Shown: positions 4,734 to 45,741 of the stretch, piece after piece
Layout of the letters: each line of letters starts with the position of its first letter
Position numbering within the stretch: position 1 is the stretch's first letter
Assembly (NCBI RefSeq): GCF_014284275.1
Contig: NZ_JACOFU010000001.1
Span: 1-64,000, forward strand
Source: Affinundibacterium amnicola
GTDB lineage: Bacteria; Pseudomonadota; Gammaproteobacteria; Burkholderiales; Burkholderiaceae_D
Length of the DNA stretch: 64,000 bases
Direction of reading: 5' to 3'
Program-made: the position numbers and the translations under genes
The notes under the pieces: model-generated
Told to the model about the DNA's origin: nothing
Databases searched by the model: none
Seen by the model: the letters and a program-made list of their open reading frames with translations, nothing else

Positions 4734-6260
4734 ATGAAAGCTAATCATCCTCATCAATCTGGAATGTTCTCTGGCCTAGTGCAATGGCGCAGTTGGAGCA
4801 TACGCACGCGCTTGATGGTGATTGCCATTTTTCCAGTCGTGTATTTATTTTTCTCCCTTATTTCCTATTCGTATTACGCAAGACTAAAAGAAGTTGAAGA
4901 AGAACTTCATGCGCGTGCCAAAACGATTACGACGGCCCTAGCCGATGGCGTTGAATACAATATCATTGCGGGAAATTTGCAGGGCATTAAGCAAATGATT
5001 TATGGTGTCATTCAAACAGATCGCAATGTGTATCGTATCGACATTTTCGACACGAATAAAAAAGAACTCAGTCACGTTGAAAATGCAGGTAAAGCGAAAC
5101 CAGAAAAACAGTATGTAGAATTACCGATTAAGCGTCACATGGTATGGATCAATCTGCATACAGATAATCACGAAAGTGTCGTCAAATTAGACACCGCGAA
5201 AGACAAGAATCAGGCCATTCTTGGCTATGTGCGCGTTACCATGACGAAGTCTTATTTGTTGAGTAAACAGCGGTATCGGTTTTCAATTGAATTAGTCATG
5301 GCGATGTTGGCGTTGTCTGTTAGCACGTGGCTGGCATGGTATTTATCAAAAGGATTAAGTCGTCCTTTACACCTTGCGATAGACGCATTGCGTGATATCA
5401 GTGCCGGCCGCACAGAAACACAAATTACGATTTCTGATGGTGGAGAAATCGGTGAGCTGCAAAAATCTATCAATGAGATGGCAAGTAATTTGCATCAATC
5501 ACAAACGCATTTGGAAAATACGGTTGCCGAACGTACCAAGGAATTGATCGCTTCACGCAACGAGGCATTGAAAGCCGATGCCGAGAAACGCCGCCTAATT
5601 CATAAGGTCAACGCCATCGTTGAAAATGAAAGACAGAGTATTGCGGTTGAAATTCATGATGAACTGAATGCGTCTTTGATTGCAGTGCGATTAGAATCAG
5701 AACGCATCGCTAAAGTCGCAGCGAATGCTGATACAGATAAACAGAATGCGTCAGCGTTTCAAGAAATTCAAGATAGAGCAAAAGCAGTCTCTAAATTGGC
5801 ATTAGACCTCTATGCGAACGGTAGAAACTTAGTGCGTCGATTGCGTCCTGAGGTACTGGATATGTTGGGGCTGGAAGGCGCTATAGAAGAGATGCTGCGC
5901 ATCTATAATGCCGCACATGAAGACTGCCATTTTAACTTTGCATCTGAAGGTGACTTCGCACAATTAGACGGCGATCTGGCGATATCTGCTTATCGCATCG
6001 TGCAAGAAGCTTGTTCTAATATTTTGAAGCACGCGCAAGCAAAACAAGTGGAAATCACACTGCATATGAATGTGGAGAAAACGGTGTTGAAAATTCATGT
6101 ACGCGACGATGGCATTGGCTTTGATACCACACAAGTAGTCGCCGGAATCGGTATCAGTGGCATGCGTGAACGTGTGTTGGCGTGGGGTGGTGAATTTAAA
6201 TTGCTTAGTGAGACAGGTGAGGGGACGTGTATCGCGATTGAATTACCAGTACAGACATGA
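4734..6260 (+). CDS. NarX/DegS-type sensor histidine kinase
   Basis: A 508-residue membrane kinase, partner of the response regulator just upstream. Two membrane segments (about 25-50 and 185-205) bracket a periplasmic sensor region. A HAMP linker (about 206-260), a short coiled coil, a HisKA_3 dimerisation domain and a HATPase domain follow. The predicted phosphorylated residue is His308 in VEIHDELN; the N box is QEACSNILKHA and the glycine boxes are RDDGIGFD and GISGMRERV, all intact. The signal sensed cannot be read from the sequence. Confidence 0.9.
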   Translation: MKANHPHQSGMFSGLVQWRSWSIRTRLMVIAIFPVVYLFFSLISYSYYARLKEVEEELHARAKTITTALADGVEYNIIAGNLQGIKQMIYGVIQTDRNVYRIDIFDTNKKELSHVENAGKAKPEKQYVELPIKRHMVWINLHTDNHESVVKLDTAKDKNQAILGYVRVTMTKSYLLSKQRYRFSIELVMAMLALSVSTWLAWYLSKGLSRPLHLAIDALRDISAGRTETQITISDGGEIGELQKSINEMASNLHQSQTHLENTVAERTKELIASRNEALKADAEKRRLIHKVNAIVENERQSIAVEIHDELNASLIAVRLESERIAKVAANADTDKQNASAFQEIQDRAKAVSKLALDLYANGRNLVRRLRPEVLDMLGLEGAIEEMLRIYNAAHEDCHFNFASEGDFAQLDGDLAISAYRIVQEACSNILKHAQAKQVEITLHMNVEKTVLKIHVRDDGIGFDTTQVVAGIGISGMRERVLAWGGEFKLLSETGEGTCIAIELPVQT

Positions 6261-6320
6261 AGCTGCAAGCGATGTAGGGTACATGCATCGTTATGCGTTT
6301 CTTCATTCAAAGGATGAACG

Positions 6321-6506
6321 ATGAAAAGTGAATTAAAAGATGGTGATCACTGTGTTGTTACAGGTGGAACACACAAAGGCAAAAAAGGTACCGTGCGTGA
6401 TCTCAATACCAGTAAAACTGGGCAAATCACACTCACCGTTGTGCAGCAAAATGGTGAGCGTTTTAAGACCTTAGCGAAGAATGTTCTTGTTCAAGAAACT
6501 AGGTGA
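6321..6506 (+). CDS. KOW-domain mini-protein
   Basis: A 61-codon gene with a good ribosome site (AAAGGATG, 5 bases upstream). The protein is almost only a KOW motif (HCVVTGGTHKGKKGTVRDL), the small beta-barrel RNA/ribosome-binding fold of NusG and ribosomal protein L24, followed by a short beta-rich tail. Stand-alone KOW proteins of this size are known but poorly characterised; RNA binding is an inference from the fold. It stands 60 bases after the histidine kinase and could be cotranscribed. Confidence 0.7.
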   Translation: MKSELKDGDHCVVTGGTHKGKKGTVRDLNTSKTGQITLTVVQQNGERFKTLAKNVLVQETR

Positions 6507-6560
6507 ACACACTCTAGTACTTAGTGTTATCTTTAAAGAAGAAAATCAACTCATACCAAT

Positions 6561-7004
6561 ATGCATCAACTAACTTATCGGCGTGCCACCTCAGCAGATA
6601 TCCCTGCGATGTCAAACATTCGTTTGTCTGTGCGTGAAAATATCTTGTCGAATCCCGCTTTGGTCACGTACCAGATGTATGAGGATTATCTCGGATTGTT
6701 GGGGCGAGGCTGGGTCTGTGAATTGCACGGAGAAATTATTGGTTTTTCTTATGCCGCGATGAATGCACATTCAATCTGGGCATTATTTATTGATCCAAAA
6801 CATGAGGGATTAGGTGCCGGCAAAGGTTTGCTTCAACTAGCTTGTCAATACTTGTTTGAAGAAGGTGCGCAGACGGTTCAGTTATCTACCAATGTCGCTA
6901 CAAGAGCCGAAAATTTTTATCTTGCGCAAGGCTGGATCAGAGGGGATATGAAGGATGGCGATGAAGTCTATTTTCAGCTAGATCGCGCAACATGGAATCT
7001 TTGA
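6561..7004 (+). CDS. GNAT-family N-acetyltransferase
   Basis: A 147-residue single-domain GNAT protein. The acetyl-CoA-binding motif A region reads LFIDPKHEGLGAGKGLLQLA (about residues 75-94), with the usual R/Q-x-x-G-x-G/A loop degenerate as EGLGAGKG. The C-terminal NFYLAQGWIRG matches the motif B 'FY...GF' strand. It probably acetylates a small molecule or a protein N-terminus; the substrate is unknown. Confidence 0.8.
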   Translation: MHQLTYRRATSADIPAMSNIRLSVRENILSNPALVTYQMYEDYLGLLGRGWVCELHGEIIGFSYAAMNAHSIWALFIDPKHEGLGAGKGLLQLACQYLFEEGAQTVQLSTNVATRAENFYLAQGWIRGDMKDGDEVYFQLDRATWNL

Positions 7005-38128: not shown

Positions 38129-38716
38129 CTAATCTGGCTGCTTATTCTCTAACTGAGAAACACCACCAGAGACGATAAATTTCATGGCATTACTTGGGCT
38201 GACATTAATCGCTCTTACTTGATTGCTAGGGACGATAAATAACTCGCCAGAGAAATTGTACGAGTGCGGGAAATACACCGCGACTTTATCTTCTAATCCT
38301 AAGATCGACAGATCATGTTCAGTTAAAAAGCCTAGTTTTTCTAACTTGGCTTCAGGGTTGATTAACACCAAAACAGGTTGATTAAATTTTTTCTCGTCGC
38401 CGACAAAGGCGGAAAAAAGATCATTGAGTGAGGAGTAGATTTCATTTAATACGGGAATGTTTTTTATCGACTTTCTAATCAGGCGCTTAATTGGTTTGGC
38501 AATAAAAGTCTGTCCAAAATAGCCAACACAAATCAGTAATAAGACGATGATTAATAATCCCAGACCAGGAATATCACGGCCGATCAATAACTCCAAACTT
38601 TCTCTCAATAAGCCATCTGTAAATTCAAATGTCAGCAGCAGGATGTAGGCTGTTAAGGCTAAGGGCGATATAAACAGTAAACCTTGCAGGAAATAATTAA
38701 CGAGTTTTTTGAGCAT
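38129..38716 (-). CDS. DUF502 family membrane protein
   Basis: A 195-residue protein with two N-terminal membrane segments (about 7-30 and 48-70) and the DUF502 core (PVLNEIYSSLNDLF, PHSYNFSGELFIVPSNQVRAI). The family is widespread and has no established function. ATG start. Confidence 0.85.
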   Translation of the reverse strand: MLKKLVNYFLQGLLFISPLALTAYILLLTFEFTDGLLRESLELLIGRDIPGLGLLIIVLLLICVGYFGQTFIAKPIKRLIRKSIKNIPVLNEIYSSLNDLFSAFVGDEKKFNQPVLVLINPEAKLEKLGFLTEHDLSILGLEDKVAVYFPHSYNFSGELFIVPSNQVRAINVSPSNAMKFIVSGGVSQLENKQPD

Positions 38717-39148: not shown

Positions 39149-39556
39149 TCACGACTTGCTTTCCTTGGTACTGACGAAAAAATAAGCGGCAACAAACATC
39201 AATAGCTCTAGTACATAGAAAAACTGAGCGAAGCCAAAACCGAACTCTGCAATGGCCCATGCGAGCGAGGCAAGCATAATGATCCCAACCAAAATAAGAG
39301 TCGGCTTAATATTTTTTCCCCGAGATAAATCCCAGATAATCCAAGCGATGATCAGCGTCCAGATGATATTGAAACCTAAGATCAACGGATCATGAAAACT
39401 AATCTCTTCAAAATCAAGTCCATCAAAGTAAACTGCAAGCAGAGTAGAAATGCATGAAATGATCAGCGCGATTGCGGCTTTCTTAATATCGGTTGGCAAA
39501 GATGTTCTCCGTTGTAGTTGGTTTAGGTCGAGCTCTCCAATGCAGAGCGCACGCAT
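39149..39556 (-). CDS. Four-helix membrane protein, accessory island
   Basis: A protein of up to 135 residues with four membrane segments (about 27-45, 58-76, 84-102 and 108-127). No family recognised. The ATG at 39556 is close to the upstream gene; a TTG at 39499 with GGAG 7 bases before it would give a 116-residue protein starting just before the first membrane segment and is a good alternative. Confidence 0.6.
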   Translation of the reverse strand: MRALCIGELDLNQLQRRTSLPTDIKKAAIALIISCISTLLAVYFDGLDFEEISFHDPLILGFNIIWTLIIAWIIWDLSRGKNIKPTLILVGIIMLASLAWAIAEFGFGFAQFFYVLELLMFVAAYFFVSTKESKS

Positions 39557-39567
39557 CCAGTGAGATG

Positions 39568-39933
39568 TTAAAGCGCGGTGACACTATATCTATTGTCATG
39601 GTCATAGAAGAAGCGATCCTTGCGGAATAGTCCAGTGCTATCTATTACCGCTAAGTCAAACATTTCTTCATAAACTGGCCATGTTGTTTCACAGCATATC
39701 GTGATGTTAGTCTCGTACTTTTCGACTGCACGAACCCACACCTCAAAAGGGTGATGCGTGCAATATGCAATGAAAGACATCCCTGGTGAAACCGAGCCTT
39801 CAATTTCAATCACTCGAAGGCAAAAAGTAGAAGTAGCACCGGCACTTCTCTGCTGTGTGTCTGTTTGACTTAATACTTTAAATTTCACCACTTCTGTATC
39901 CTGAGTATTAACGTTTGAGTTAGCTTGCTTCAC
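39568..39933 (-). CDS. Hypothetical protein overlapping the HNH-like gene
   Basis: A 121-residue soluble protein with a predicted GTG start that overlaps the end of the preceding gene by 14 bases, so both are probably translated together. The sequence has mixed beta character (TFCLRVIEIEGSVSPGMSFIAYC) that resembles the beta-barrel domain 2 of translation GTPases in outline only. No function assigned. Confidence 0.6.
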   Translation of the reverse strand: MKQANSNVNTQDTEVVKFKVLSQTDTQQRSAGATSTFCLRVIEIEGSVSPGMSFIAYCTHHPFEVWVRAVEKYETNITICCETTWPVYEEMFDLAVIDSTGLFRKDRFFYDHDNRYSVTAL

Positions 39934-40939
39934 TCGTAATTGACCATGGCGGTACGTTTATGTCCATGTGCCAAAAACTTCCATCTTCTCTGTGCAGCCA
40001 ACTAGCAAGGCGGTCTTCAACGGGCATAACCGCCTCCCTGAGATATCCCAGAAAAAACATCAGCATCTCTGCCATTTCCTCTGAGGACCACTTTTCAAAT
40101 ACTGGTCGAGTAGAAAGCCCCGCTATTGGTGCCACCTGAAAATCTATTCCAGATGGTGATTCGGCGATCATCGCTTTGGGAATGCGATTGAATTTTTTTG
40201 CCTTCATGAACAGATTTGCTCCAAGTTCTTCAAACTGGAGAGGATGAAGCTGATGGTTCTGATATTTAGAGAAGAAGTGAGATCCCTCAAAAGTCTGTGC
40301 GCCCATGTCAAAGGCGGCTAAAATCCCGACTTTTCCCATCCTTAAATATAGGGTATTAACTGCAACATCATCTTTGTAATCAAATCGCAAGTTTGGATTA
40401 GCTGGTTCCTTGAGTTCGAAGATGAACAGCGAAGCTGGGATATCGCTTTCGAGCTGAGAGAACCGGATGGGAATCCTTGATGCCTGAAGGATGTAATGAA
40501 GCAGCTGATATTGCTCCATATCTTCTGTAGTAACTATAGATCCGGCGGCAGGATCGCGGCGCTCCATTGGCAGGAATATTTCTCGATATAAAAGACCGAA
40601 AAATATCTTGAGTATCCACAGCATAAGGACTTCACGGTCAACCCCCCTCAATGCAGACGCACCAGCCAGGAATGCCGTTCTAATGGTGTTCTCGATTTGC
40701 GACAGATGCGTGTTATTGCACTGAGTGCAGCAAGGAATCACCAGCATTCGATACGGAATCTCCGTTCCGTTGATTAGAGTGAGCCTCTTATTCCACAGCC
40801 CGAAATGATGGAGAAGCCACTTTGGAAACACGTGCTCCTTTGAATCATCATCGTCGCCAGTACGAGCGCCGCAGAGAAAACACGTGTTTTCCGCAAAATC
40901 GTGGTTTCGCACAGCATCATATAGTTTGATATTTGCCAC
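39920..40939 (-). CDS. HNH-nuclease-like zinc-finger protein, accessory island
   Basis: A protein of about 339 residues with an N-terminal two-CxxC module: CFLCGARTGDDDDSKEHVFPKWLL then CCTQCNNTHLSQIEN. The spacing CxxC - EHVFP - CxxCN is that of HNH/His-Me-finger-like proteins; the catalytic His would be in EHVFP. The rest (about 80-339) is helical and unknown. The GTG at 40939 has GGAGG 5 bases upstream; an ATG at 40951 overlaps that site and is less likely. A defence role is conceivable but unproven. Confidence 0.6.
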   Translation of the reverse strand: MANIKLYDAVRNHDFAENTCFLCGARTGDDDDSKEHVFPKWLLHHFGLWNKRLTLINGTEIPYRMLVIPCCTQCNNTHLSQIENTIRTAFLAGASALRGVDREVLMLWILKIFFGLLYREIFLPMERRDPAAGSIVTTEDMEQYQLLHYILQASRIPIRFSQLESDIPASLFIFELKEPANPNLRFDYKDDVAVNTLYLRMGKVGILAAFDMGAQTFEGSHFFSKYQNHQLHPLQFEELGANLFMKAKKFNRIPKAMIAESPSGIDFQVAPIAGLSTRPVFEKWSSEEMAEMLMFFLGYLREAVMPVEDRLASWLHREDGSFWHMDINVPPWSITSEAS

Positions 40940-41038
40940 GTATGCCTCCATGCAACCTAATATTTTAGATGATAGGCGTCGCGCGGCTTGCCGGGTGACG
41001 TTTTCACAATTGAAGGGCTAGGCGCCTCGGTGTATGGC

Positions 41039-41647
41039 TCATTCGAGGTGCCCCTGCCTCTCAAGTTCAGTCGCGGTTGTTTCGAAGGCACTAAGAAATT
41101 CCGCTACTACGTCAACGATATTCTGAAACGACTGATCTGTGATATTTAAATAGCGCTGCGTGCCTTTGTACGGTGTGCTGAATCTGTCGGGTTCCAGGAA
41201 ACCAGTGAGTGCATAGAGCCCGTCTGGCGCATGAACTTCGGGATGTGCTTCGTTCTCACCCTTATGTGCGGTGGCGTGCCGCAAGGCCTCAATATCGGGA
41301 AAGTACTCGTCTAGCCTTTTGCGCGCATTCTTAATCTTTGGCATATCCACCGTTGCGCGTACCGACGGGCAATTACGGAGTCTGACCGATTGAATCTTTT
41401 CCAATCGAGCTCGAAGATTATACAACTCTAGTACGCACTCGTGGCAGGCAACCCAGCGCCACCGATCGGCTATTGCACGAGAGATTGGAGGAGGTGGGCT
41501 CTTTGACGTGCGGTAAAGCTGCAACGCAGCATCCCATGCTTCGACGCTGAACTTGAGACCTGCGAGGTGTGCGTACAAGTCCTTGATTGATGCAACCTCT
41601 TCTGCAGGCGTAAGCGTTGACGGCCAAAGGACGGGTACCCGGAGCAT
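41039..41647 (-). CDS. AbiU2/HEPN-like protein, cassette-associated
   Basis: A 202-residue helical protein. The HEPN RNase motif Rx4H is visible as RHATAHKG (Arg123 to His128), and the overall helical layout resembles AbiU2-type HEPN proteins. HEPN domains cut RNA in toxin-antitoxin and abortive-infection systems. The ATG lies 14 bases after a GTTAGG recombination core (41655-41661), as is typical of a gene at the start of an integron cassette. No nucleotidyltransferase antitoxin is adjacent. Confidence 0.6.
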   Translation of the reverse strand: MLRVPVLWPSTLTPAEEVASIKDLYAHLAGLKFSVEAWDAALQLYRTSKSPPPPISRAIADRWRWVACHECVLELYNLRARLEKIQSVRLRNCPSVRATVDMPKIKNARKRLDEYFPDIEALRHATAHKGENEAHPEVHAPDGLYALTGFLEPDRFSTPYKGTQRYLNITDQSFQNIVDVVAEFLSAFETTATELERQGHLE

Positions 41648-41654
41648 TTCTGAG

Positions 41655-41747
41655 ACCTAACGCCGAATTGAAAGGCGCGCTGGCCGATCAATAAATTTAA
41701 GTGATTCGTCTATTTTGCGCGTCATTTTCGAATGTCATGTTAGAGGC
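41655..41747 (-). other. attC-like recombination site of an integron gene cassette
   Basis: Read on the minus strand, GCCTCTAAC follows directly after the TGA of the upstream gene and GTTAGGT ends the site 14 bases before the next ATG. Between them are about 75 bases with imperfect inverted repeats (GACGCGC / GCGCGCC). The 5' core GCCTCTAAC is the exact complement of GTTAGAGGC, the left boundary of the same cassette at 42303-42311, as required when a circular cassette closes. This is strong internal evidence for an attC. Confidence 0.7.
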
Positions 41748-41748
41748 A

Positions 41749-42291
41749 TCAAAATGAATAGTTCTGCAATACATGATTTAGTCTAATCTCGTATGTAGAG
41801 TTACTTTTACATTTATTTATTAGGTCGACGTAGAAGTTCTTGAGTCCATCAAGGAACGCAAGGTAAGTATCTTCAATATGCGCCGAAACATGTGCACCAT
41901 CGTCAATATTTTTTGTAGCTGCGACAAACGCGAGCCCCATTGGACTATCTTTAGGGCCAGAAAAATATTGAATTTGTCTGGCCTTTCCATTTCGTGACAG
42001 ATCCGATTGTGAAGTGAATGTGTGCAAGACAGCGCATCGTGCCCCCCAAAAATCGACTTCATTGAATTCCAAAACGGAGGAGTTAAGAATATATTTTTTT
42101 ACCCAGTCTTTAAAAGTTTGACCTGATGCACTGGTTACATCCGGTGCCGAGTCTAAGAGCCCCATTGAATCGATTGATGAATACATGAGTACCAATAGAT
42201 GCCCGAACAAACTTTTTTCATACAGTAGACCAGTAGCATCAACGGTATTGCTAATGAATTTCCCAATAAGTGCTTCTGTGCTTTGTGACAT
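41749..42291 (-). CDS. HEPN-motif protein encoded in an integron-type cassette
   Basis: A 180-residue mostly helical soluble protein. The motif Rx4H occurs as RCAVLH (85-90), within DFWGARCAVLHTF, as in HEPN-type RNases. The stop codon abuts the 5' core of an attC-like site and the start is 12-16 bases after a GTTAG core, the tight fit typical of integron cassettes. It has no good ribosome site of its own; the leader ORF just upstream may feed ribosomes to it. Confidence 0.6.
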   Translation of the reverse strand: MSQSTEALIGKFISNTVDATGLLYEKSLFGHLLVLMYSSIDSMGLLDSAPDVTSASGQTFKDWVKKYILNSSVLEFNEVDFWGARCAVLHTFTSQSDLSRNGKARQIQYFSGPKDSPMGLAFVAATKNIDDGAHVSAHIEDTYLAFLDGLKNFYVDLINKCKSNSTYEIRLNHVLQNYSF

Positions 42292-42302
42292 GACGATATA
42301 AG

Positions 42303-42311
42303 GCCTCTAAC
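42303..42311 (-). other. attI-like / cassette-boundary core GTTAGAGGC
   Basis: On the minus strand CTAGTTAGAGGCC contains the core G/TTAGAG. It forms the left boundary of the cassette whose attC 5' core (GCCTCTAAC) is its exact complement. No integrase gene is near, so whether this is an attI or an older attC remnant is unknown. Confidence 0.55.
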
Positions 42312-42369
42312 TAGATGAAGACGGTGAAATGACGGGTGAAAAAGACCCTTGACGCATAATGCTTTTCAT
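42307..42369 (-). CDS. 20-codon leader ORF (module A)
   Basis: An ATG with a strong ribosome site (GGAGG, 7 bases upstream) opens a 20-residue ORF (MKSIMRQGSFSPV...) whose TAG stop lies within the GTTAG core at the cassette boundary. The cassette gene starts 15 bases later without its own ribosome site. This is the arrangement of ORF-11 in the attI1 site of class 1 integrons, which boosts translation of the first cassette. Confidence 0.5.
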   Translation of the reverse strand: MKSIMRQGSFSPVISPSSSS

Positions 42370-42440
42370 ATGAAACCCTCCAAACCTGCATGAATAAACG
42401 ATTTTCTCTAATTTTTTGAATTTTTGCTGCACAAAAAAAT

Positions 42441-42512
42441 TGATGAAAAGCGCCAGCAACAAAGACGGTCATTCTATCAAGGCATGTGGTAGCGTCAAGC
42501 AAACAATTTTCA
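42441..42512 (-). repeat. Promoter module A (paired with 45401-45472)
   Basis: 72 bases align without gaps to 45401-45472; I count 61 identical positions. The shared block includes a complete minus-strand promoter and ends upstream of a leader ORF in both places. Confidence 0.85.
42471..42498 (-). promoter_or_regulatory. sigma70-type promoter of module A
   Basis: -35 TTGACG (42493-42498) and -10 TAGAAT (42471-42476), spacing 16 bases. It should drive the leader ORF and the cassette genes to its left. Confidence 0.7.
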
Positions 42513-42610
42513 TTTTTGGATCGGCACTAAATAAATCTTCACAACATGTTGCAATTTGCGATTGATGTCCTCACACGCAGAGTCAATCATCAAACATCAG
42601 CCCCAAAAAC

Positions 42611-44970: not shown

Positions 44971-45249
44971 TTAAAGTTCATTTATATCTTTCATGAACAT
45001 TTTTCGGAAAAACCTTATTGCCACTAAAAAACCGCCGACAATAAACAATACACCGAAAATAATTTCCCGAAGCCAGAATAAGAGAAAGTAACTGAGGTCT
45101 GTCGTTTGATCATTTGAATCAACAGTATTCCAGGTCCAATACATCAATAAGCCAGAAATCACAACGTAGAGTGTTAAGAACACGACCGCACCTACCGTGC
45201 TTTGTTCTTTGTTTACCTCAATCTCCTTTTTAGTCGGCAATTCGTCCAT
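44971..45249 (-). CDS. Two-helix small membrane protein
   Basis: A 92-residue protein with two membrane segments (about 20-42 and 58-82), N- and C-termini rich in charged residues. Its ATG overlaps the end of leader ORF B by 20 bases, and no separate ribosome site is visible. Together with leader B it is the first gene behind promoter module B. Confidence 0.6.
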   Translation of the reverse strand: MDELPTKKEIEVNKEQSTVGAVVFLTLYVVISGLLMYWTWNTVDSNDQTTDLSYFLLFWLREIIFGVLFIVGGFLVAIRFFRKMFMKDINEL

Positions 45250-45328: not shown

Positions 45329-45400
45329 GTAATTCCTCTCAAGCAGATATAAATACTAGCCCATCTCCAATTTTTACTATTTTCAAGTGCATTAAAATTT

Positions 45401-45472
45401 TGGCGAAAAATGTCAACAACAAAGATAGTCATTCTATCAAGGCTTTTGCTAGCGTCAAGCAAACAATTTTCA
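45401..45472 (-). repeat. Promoter module B (paired with 42441-42512)
   Basis: Ungapped match to module A, 61 of 72 positions by eye, same orientation, 2960 bases apart. Confidence 0.85.
45431..45458 (-). promoter_or_regulatory. sigma70-type promoter of module B
   Basis: -35 TTGACG (45453-45458) and -10 TAGAAT (45431-45436), spacing 16 bases, identical boxes to module A. Confidence 0.7.
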
Positions 45473-45741
45473 ATATTGAAAGTGCGCTAATTTTTTACAT
45501 GCTGAACAAAATAGGATGTAAAGAAATGACACGCGTGCTGGTATGCCATTTCTCAATTGATAAATCGGTTTTGAGATCGCTTCCGTATTAAATTACGCAG
45601 GTACATTCACTAGCCAGTCATCGTCACTAATTACGCAAAGACCGTTGCAAAACGCAGCAGGGTGTTGATGAAATTTTCAAACAACATTGATCAATGGCGC
45701 ATCAAATGACCTGCCGCTTATTGCAAACCAACTGGACTTGC

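Follow-up and report, generated by a model that had tools for sequence, protein, structure and literature searches.

A probable integron platform without an integrase, with a complete first cassette at its attI site, in Affinundibacterium amnicola

The window analysed here, a stretch of 64,000 nucleotides from Affinundibacterium amnicola (contig NZ_JACOFU010000001.1, positions 1 to 64,000), carries on its minus strand a complete integron gene cassette (cassette 1) that follows a promoter and an attachment site and has no integrase gene beside it (Table 1). We consider it very likely that this site, including the origin and the mode of expression proposed below, is a minimal integron platform without an integrase, consisting of a Pc promoter, an attI with its leader reading frame and a genuine first cassette placed at the attI crossover. 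The cassette itself is ordinary; what is uncommon is its setting, an attI without intI, which is repeated in the genome and in the genus.

Table 1. Features of the site and of the window, and the attI sites read in the same genome (positions are those of the window unless a contig is given)
Feature	Position	Strand	Description	Basis or remark
Pc promoter	42471..42498	-	TTGACG-16-TAGAAT, TG before -10, 10/12 consensus matches	conserved pattern and place
intI stub, putative	42467..42515	+	...GHSIKACGSVKQTI compared with HSTKLLDRVKEAI near the start of the G032 IntI	by eye
attI	42305..42384	-	ends in core GTTAGAG (42311-42305)	similarity to attI beside intact intI
attI leader ORF	42307..42369	-	MKSIMRQGSFSPVISPSSSS*	stop TAG 42309-42307 within the cassette
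Cassette 1, integrated form	41661..42310	-	crossover to crossover, 650 bp	
Cassette 1 ORF	41749..42291	-	180 aa	no match in Pfam, NCBIfam or PADLOC
attC of cassette 1	41655..41747	-	R'' GCCTCTAAC, R' GTTAGGT	family similarity and complementarity
Cassette 2 ORF	41039..41647	-	202 aa, 7 nt after core GTTAGGT	only 5' core clear
Rest of insert	39515..41038	-	ORFs of 343 aa (39920-40951) and 121 aa (39568-39933)	not common to compared relatives
Second Pc-attI relic	45364..45478	-	leader MINVMPQIKLLGDIFSPKSS..., core changed to GCGAAAG	ORF 44971-45249 follows
Own-genome attI	C1:42.3k		site in front of cassette 1	
Own-genome attI	C1:45.4k		core changed	
Own-genome attI	C28:254k		hemE locus, without intI	
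Own-genome attI	C23:66.9k		broken intI beside	
Own-genome attI	C23:479.7k		broken intI beside	
Own-genome attI	C32:75k		80% over 71 bp to attI beside intI of G002:C4	
Own-genome attI	C27:98k		72% over 147 columns to attI of G010:C78	

A sequence-only reading of this DNA had pointed to an exact complementarity between the start of a cassette and the start of an attC-like site, and its letters and places were confirmed: the opening core GTTAGAGGC (42311-42303, minus strand) is answered on the same strand at 41747-41739 by GCCTCTAAC, its exact complement in nine of nine bases, an arrangement found once in the window. The gene also fits between the two cores as tightly as had been described, its ORF lying within 42311-41655 and a single base separating its stop codon from GCCTCTAAC, and the core GTTAGGT that closes the cassette (41661-41655, minus strand) does lead into another gene, the start of this core lying 14 nt before that of the 202-aa ORF. 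Cassette 1 has a start of the GTTRRRY type and an attC whose R'' complements that start, with the proviso that its opening core is strictly GTTAGAG, the last base being R, not the Y of GTTRRRY. A scan for this anatomy (GTTRRR plus three bases, the exact nine-base complement 250-1600 nt further on, and a second GTTRRRY 45-120 nt later) found cassette 1 as the sole case on both strands of the window, and one case in all in 40 order-2 Markov simulations of it. That the complementarity arose by chance at an ordinary gene, a notion with which the unremarkable fold energy of the attC would agree, can be practically dismissed in view of these counts and of the copies of the attC elsewhere in the genome (82% at C32:76288, E 4.3e-17; 80% at C23:480297, E 2.2e-14). 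Judged from its sequence, cassette 1 is a real integron gene cassette.

The attC of cassette 1 belongs to a family of such sites found in the lineage. The search of the genome for further sites, which had been suggested with the first reading, yielded the matches at 82% and 80%, and a sequence model built from six sites of this kind recognised eight attC sites in the own genome (E<=0.01). Members of the family occur at the same threshold in 19 of the 43 genus genomes, the own genome included, in a genus search whose stricter filters lost weak matches; at this threshold the window contains one clear attC and one further boundary that appears degenerate by eye. The inner arms of the family hardly vary. 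A complementary cassette start of at least 8 nt is found upstream of 21 of the 34 usable sites and is missing at the other 13, compared with a mean of 7% and a highest value of 19% when the R'' were swapped between sites. The 34 derive from 45 model hits, 41 of which were examined (L060:11415, L167:2060, L051:13097 and the duplicate L186 were left out before the count), after six hits without an R'' motif and one with a short upstream stretch had been dropped; they include the six model sites, and two of them (L168 and L169) are near-identical and not independent. GCCTCTAAC had no exact match at the loci of four relatives; its conservation in relatives lacking the gene, which would have spoken against the sequence-only reading, was not seen at these four loci. 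The proposed check by folding 41655-41747 gave a divided answer: the minimum-energy fold of the bottom strand does pair R' with R'' and an inner arm, but its energy (-9.6 kcal/mol) is not below that of shuffled sequences (z +0.49; 128 of 200 shuffles equalled or bettered it), nor is that of a slightly longer stretch (z +0.48; 140 of 200). Fold energy was rejected as proof of an attC, since for six attC sites of this family it does not improve on that of their shuffles (z -0.69 to +1.53), and similarity and complementarity were therefore relied on. The absence of an attC fold, which would have counted against the sequence-only reading, is compatible with the energies taken alone. Rfam gave no match at gathering thresholds.

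In front of the cassette stands a sequence similar to attI sites that adjoin an intact integrase gene. The 64 bp from 42370 to 42307 are 86% identical to the site beside a full-length intI in the congener G032 (C79), and 62 bp are 84% identical to the site beside another in G017 (C2), while the similarity with an orphan copy in G002 extends to 42384. No intact intI adjoins the attI of the window: tblastn gave no intI match there, and the plus strand at Pc reads HSIKACGSVKQTI, to be compared by eye with HSTKLLDRVKEAI of the G032 IntI, a putative stub with no start codon and nothing further of intI. In G032 the Pc lies antisense to intI codons 4-13; the promoter was called from the conservation of its pattern and from this place, not from the number of matches, since the 1.1 kb scanned contained two promoter-like matches against a shuffle mean of 2.3, which is no excess. 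The sequence-only reading had left a choice between a CALIN-like relic and an attI whose integrase is lost or distant. Its second guess, an attI with the integrase lost, fits best and is supported by the identity to the intI-adjacent sites of two congeners; of the first, the absence of the integrase stands, but the label is the weaker one for a site with one clear attC that keeps its Pc-attI. It is very improbable that a free cassette was instead inserted at a secondary (attG) chromosomal site. Insertions of this kind have been described (PMC12444791) and an integrase is indeed absent nearby, but where an attG insertion has no attI before its first core, one is present here, with 62-64 bp resembling the attI of two congeners and preceded by leader and Pc, in the order seen in congeners with intact intI.

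The leader of the window has a second in-frame ATG at 42357, giving 16 codons, and a ribosome site GGAGGG (by eye). Leaders were tabulated for 28 attI-like sites of our own choosing, two of them without a recognised core, the other sites of the Pc search being left out. In 23 of the 26 attI with a recognised core the leader ATG stands exactly 16 codons before it, and in 16 of the 26 the stop codon is formed at once by the first bases of the cassette. Three sequence families were seen. In the first, 6 of 11 varying codons differ synonymously only and the third positions vary most (7 versus 3 and 4); in the second, this holds for 4 of 11, with 6 third positions versus 5 and 4. As a sign of protein conservation this pattern is only suggestive, attI being also constrained as DNA. 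From sequence alone, the leader resembles ORF-11, in that it has a ribosome site, crosses the crossover and takes its stop from the cassette. The device is already known from class 1 integrons, where ORF-11, a short ORF across the attI1 recombination point that obtains its stop from the first cassette, is described as acting by translational coupling (PMC8876359); no report of it in this genus, or at an attI without intI, was found in the open-licence PMC literature.

The same setting recurs across the genus. With at most one mismatch the Pc pattern had 32 matches in 11 of the 43 genus genomes, with at most two it had 56 in 15, and the reversed control pattern had two in all. Within 1.5 kb of the 32 sites, tblastn found a full-length intI at seven, a broken near-complete one at one, a partial one at seven and none at 17. 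Inspected by eye, seven of these 17 show a recognisable attI followed by a GTT core, two have a changed core (C1:45k and G010:C131), three have lost it (G024:222k, G024:218k and G008:C387), and five show no visible attI (G010:C153, G006:C52, G017:C72, G024:209701 and G000:C28:255470). In the own genome (G000) seven attI could be read, none with an intact intI. The second Pc-attI relic of the window lies 3 kb upstream of the cassette 1 site. Two Pc matches likewise stand at the own-genome hemE locus, separated by 1.3 kb (C28:254157 and C28:255470), and in G024 five zero-mismatch Pc are found within 45 kb around hemE (C61, 209-255 kb; L060, L061 and L149), the sole intI match of that genome at E<=1e-30 being a fragment on a contig other than C61.

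The genome search for intI proposed with the first reading found no intact copy with the IntI family profile and no match at E<=1e-30; the assembly is in 32 contigs and 99.77% complete, so that an unassembled intI is possible. Eight stretches score against the IntI family at E<=0.001, a loose threshold at which 14 of 14 control genomes have matches too; none exceeds the family cut-off, and they are taken as two broken intI (C23:66.5k and C23:479k) and as two genes of Xer type with frames of 320 and 315 aa. The LexA consensus CTGT-N8-ACAG lies beside three of the seven full-length intI, its exact form being missing beside the other four too, and beside none of the 25 other Pc sites; at the window site a LexA box is no longer recognisable. 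Integrase inactivation accompanied by a loss of LexA control has been described before (PMC3108266). Integrase-less attC clusters are common, one survey counting 2961 CALIN and 2760 complete integrons (PMC9024848), so a missing integrase is not odd in itself.

The place of the insert, between an ankyrin gene and a DUF502 gene, can be followed in relatives. U. baiyunense (L069) and UBA7693 (L067) have the same integrase-less layout as the window (ankyrin gene, about 110 bp, Pc), which implies that intI was lost before their split, and the first genes in the slot differ (148, 159 and 180 aa in U. baiyunense, UBA7693 and the window, respectively). The sequence-only reading would have been weakened by a lack of cassette polymorphism here in relatives; the slot genes are, however, different ones. 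In L067 and L069 the attI core has been lost and nothing beyond the Pc part can be recognised, so this slot alone does not decide whether intI loss or cassette capture came first. An attI of 86% similarity stands in this neighbourhood in U. seohonense, its core changed to ATTAAAT and a 184-aa gene following it; U. macrobrachii has no attI match there. The DUF502 gene of the window (38129-38716) is 90-92% identical to the loci of U. seohonense, UBA7693, U. macrobrachii and U. baiyunense. Among the best 80 of 385 loci for this gene, four from Undibacterium/Oxalobacteraceae stand at 90-92% and the others at 52-63%, nearly all of them Bacteroidota or Balneolia by title, which suggests that the gene has been transferred between phyla.

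At hemE, a Pc-attI without intI is common to G000, G002 and G008, with 94-96% identity over about 280-300 bp, a stretch that includes about 90 bp before Pc which do not belong to intI. The three-way alignment ends at AAAACACGTTA, and similarity in the three species stops at GTTA, after which different ORFs follow (120, 162 and 458 aa); the first cassette of G002 is complete, with the start GTTATGCATC and the R'' GATGCATAAC. A common integrase-less Pc-attI followed by genes that differ from GTTA onwards indicates exchange after the local loss of the integrase, and this exchange was probably driven by an integrase acting in trans. A distal 0.9-kb segment is common to G000 and G002 at 93%, and its being kept in place is as expected for exchange at attI. 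The flank is 82% identical over 5.4 kb between G000 and G002 (the G008 contig begins just there), so the Pc-attI is the better conserved part, which exchange or selection could explain and which might suggest that homologous recombination between similar Pc-attI copies, not site-specific recombination, swapped the arrays. We regard this as unlikely: each of the three genomes has its joint at GTTA, and one crossover inside attI would not leave the distal segment where it is. Between the hemE flank and the Pc-attI of the own genome (L056; G000:C28) lies a segment of 1.3 kb with a putative AraC-type gene, at about 5405-6726 of the reversed locus; it is absent in G002 and has TGCGGGTG at both ends. 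Elsewhere in the own genome, a complete cassette of 814 bp is present twice, at C27:98k (L064) and C1:86k (L063), the copies being 93.6% alike in a match that begins at the first core base; the first stands behind an integrase-less attI of another family and the second behind another attC.

Insertion of a cassette circle at attI by IntI is the established integron mechanism, and we infer that cassette 1 entered in this way a platform descending from an Undibacterium chromosomal integron. The intI gene would have been deleted as far as the part that also serves as Pc, the LexA operator having gone from recognition. Pc would transcribe the cassette gene, and ribosomes that terminate the leader on the TAG supplied by the cassette core would, by analogy with ORF-11, start again at the cassette gene some 15 nt further along. 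As the genome yielded no intact integrase, the cassette would at present be fixed, and it should stay a substrate for an incoming IntI. Read from its sequence, the platform is most likely a remnant that still expresses its first cassette.

How far such sites remained open to new cassettes is a matter on which two accounts were weighed. In one of them, the site is a dead relic, all captures having taken place while intI stood beside attI and the later differences between species being due to decay and deletion. This account, which we judge to be plausible but somewhat less likely than not, draws on the slot of L067 and L069, where nothing of the attI core is left, and on the own genome being now without an intact intI; it has to contend with a loss of intI older than the L067/L069 split and yet a core and an attC in the window that are undecayed, with the hemE Pc-attI, integrase-less in three species whose contents differ from GTTA on, and with the 814-bp cassette, repeated from its core onwards. 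In the other account, put forward tentatively and also as somewhat less likely than not, Undibacterium would run dispersed integrons, in which several integrase-less docking sites (Pc, attI and leader), kept at conserved places of the chromosome, hemE and the DUF502 slot among them, have their cassettes exchanged by an IntI that is either encoded elsewhere in the same cell or brought in by another element; local integrase loss would then fix the control of expression while exchange continues from outside. That an integrase elsewhere kept serving such sites is likely for hemE, and we do not extend this to the window site.

As for the genes carried, relatives of the 180-aa protein of cassette 1 were found in one of 369 genomes drawn from the class, namely its own, in 3 of the 43 genus genomes, again counting its own, and in no plasmid; the window DNA from 41600 to 42520 likewise had no match on plasmids. 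One relative, in G005, is partial (37%), and the other, in G061, is 79% identical and lies outside a recognisable cassette (L191, G061:C45:894000-908000, gene at contig positions 900702-901238), adjoining XRE-type and phage-integrase-type genes as read from the sequences. Its DNA similarity to cassette 1 is 80.5% over 545 bp, from 2 nt before the ATG to the stop codon, and the attC model had no match near it. It is possible that the G061 copy represents the kind of source from which cassette 1 was made, or a former cassette whose attC was lost; with its ORF-only similarity and no attC, it touches on the question of how ordinary genes are turned into cassettes. From cassette 2 onward there is no clear attC, the 3' boundary of cassette 2 being degenerate (about 41025-40957, with GCGCCTAGC at 41025 and ATTAGGT near 40961, by eye). 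Its 202-aa protein had no match in Pfam or NCBIfam, one weak PADLOC match, to GajB (E 0.03), taken as chance, and no relatives on plasmids; among the 43 genus genomes, it and the 343-aa protein have relatives in the own genome only. The 343-aa and 121-aa ORFs are possibly decayed cassettes, and similarity with L067 and L069 resumes at about 39513. The 343-aa protein contains CxxC, EHVFPKWLL and CxxCN, an HNH-like pattern by eye, and had no match in Pfam, NCBIfam or PADLOC. No resistance gene was recognised among the cassette proteins with Pfam and NCBIfam.

Integron surveys search for intI and attC, CALINs are defined by attC sites and not by attI, and in class 1 integrons Pc lies within intI and reads outward. 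The platform described here resembles that of class 1 in a Pc that comes from intI and reads outward, and in a leader that crosses the attI crossover and receives its stop from the cassette core; unlike it, intI is deleted except for the Pc stretch, the leader has 16 (or 20) codons, and the site is chromosomal, with several attI per genome and no recognised resistance gene. With CALIN, integrase-less attC clusters proposed to be degraded integrons, it shares an attC without a neighbouring integrase, but it keeps a recognisable Pc-attI, and its one clear attC, beside a second boundary that looks degenerate, is by itself below the two-site default of IntegronFinder 2 (PMC9024848). In the excerpts of that description, an attI with a promoter and without intI is not a type of its own (PMC9024848). 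For Xanthomonas, inactivated intI in chromosomal integrons as well as CALINs at conserved loci have been described (PMC12444791), and the repeated inactivation of intI in one genus, with arrays left at conserved loci, is alike in both; whereas the Xanthomonas arrays are said to stabilise after inactivation, the genes behind one integrase-less attI here differ among three species, with the joint at GTTA. In mobile integrons, the Delta-attI-type cassettes, unusual cassettes that contain a partial attI and recombine with IntI (PMC12901181), also have attI sequence away from its intI, but here the Pc-attI stands in front as a docking site.

If such sites keep receiving cassettes, arrays that are counted as dead would in fact be places where docking goes on, and a single integrase may act on many loci. 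Since the genes at orthologous integrase-less sites differ from species to species, this genus lends itself to a direct test.
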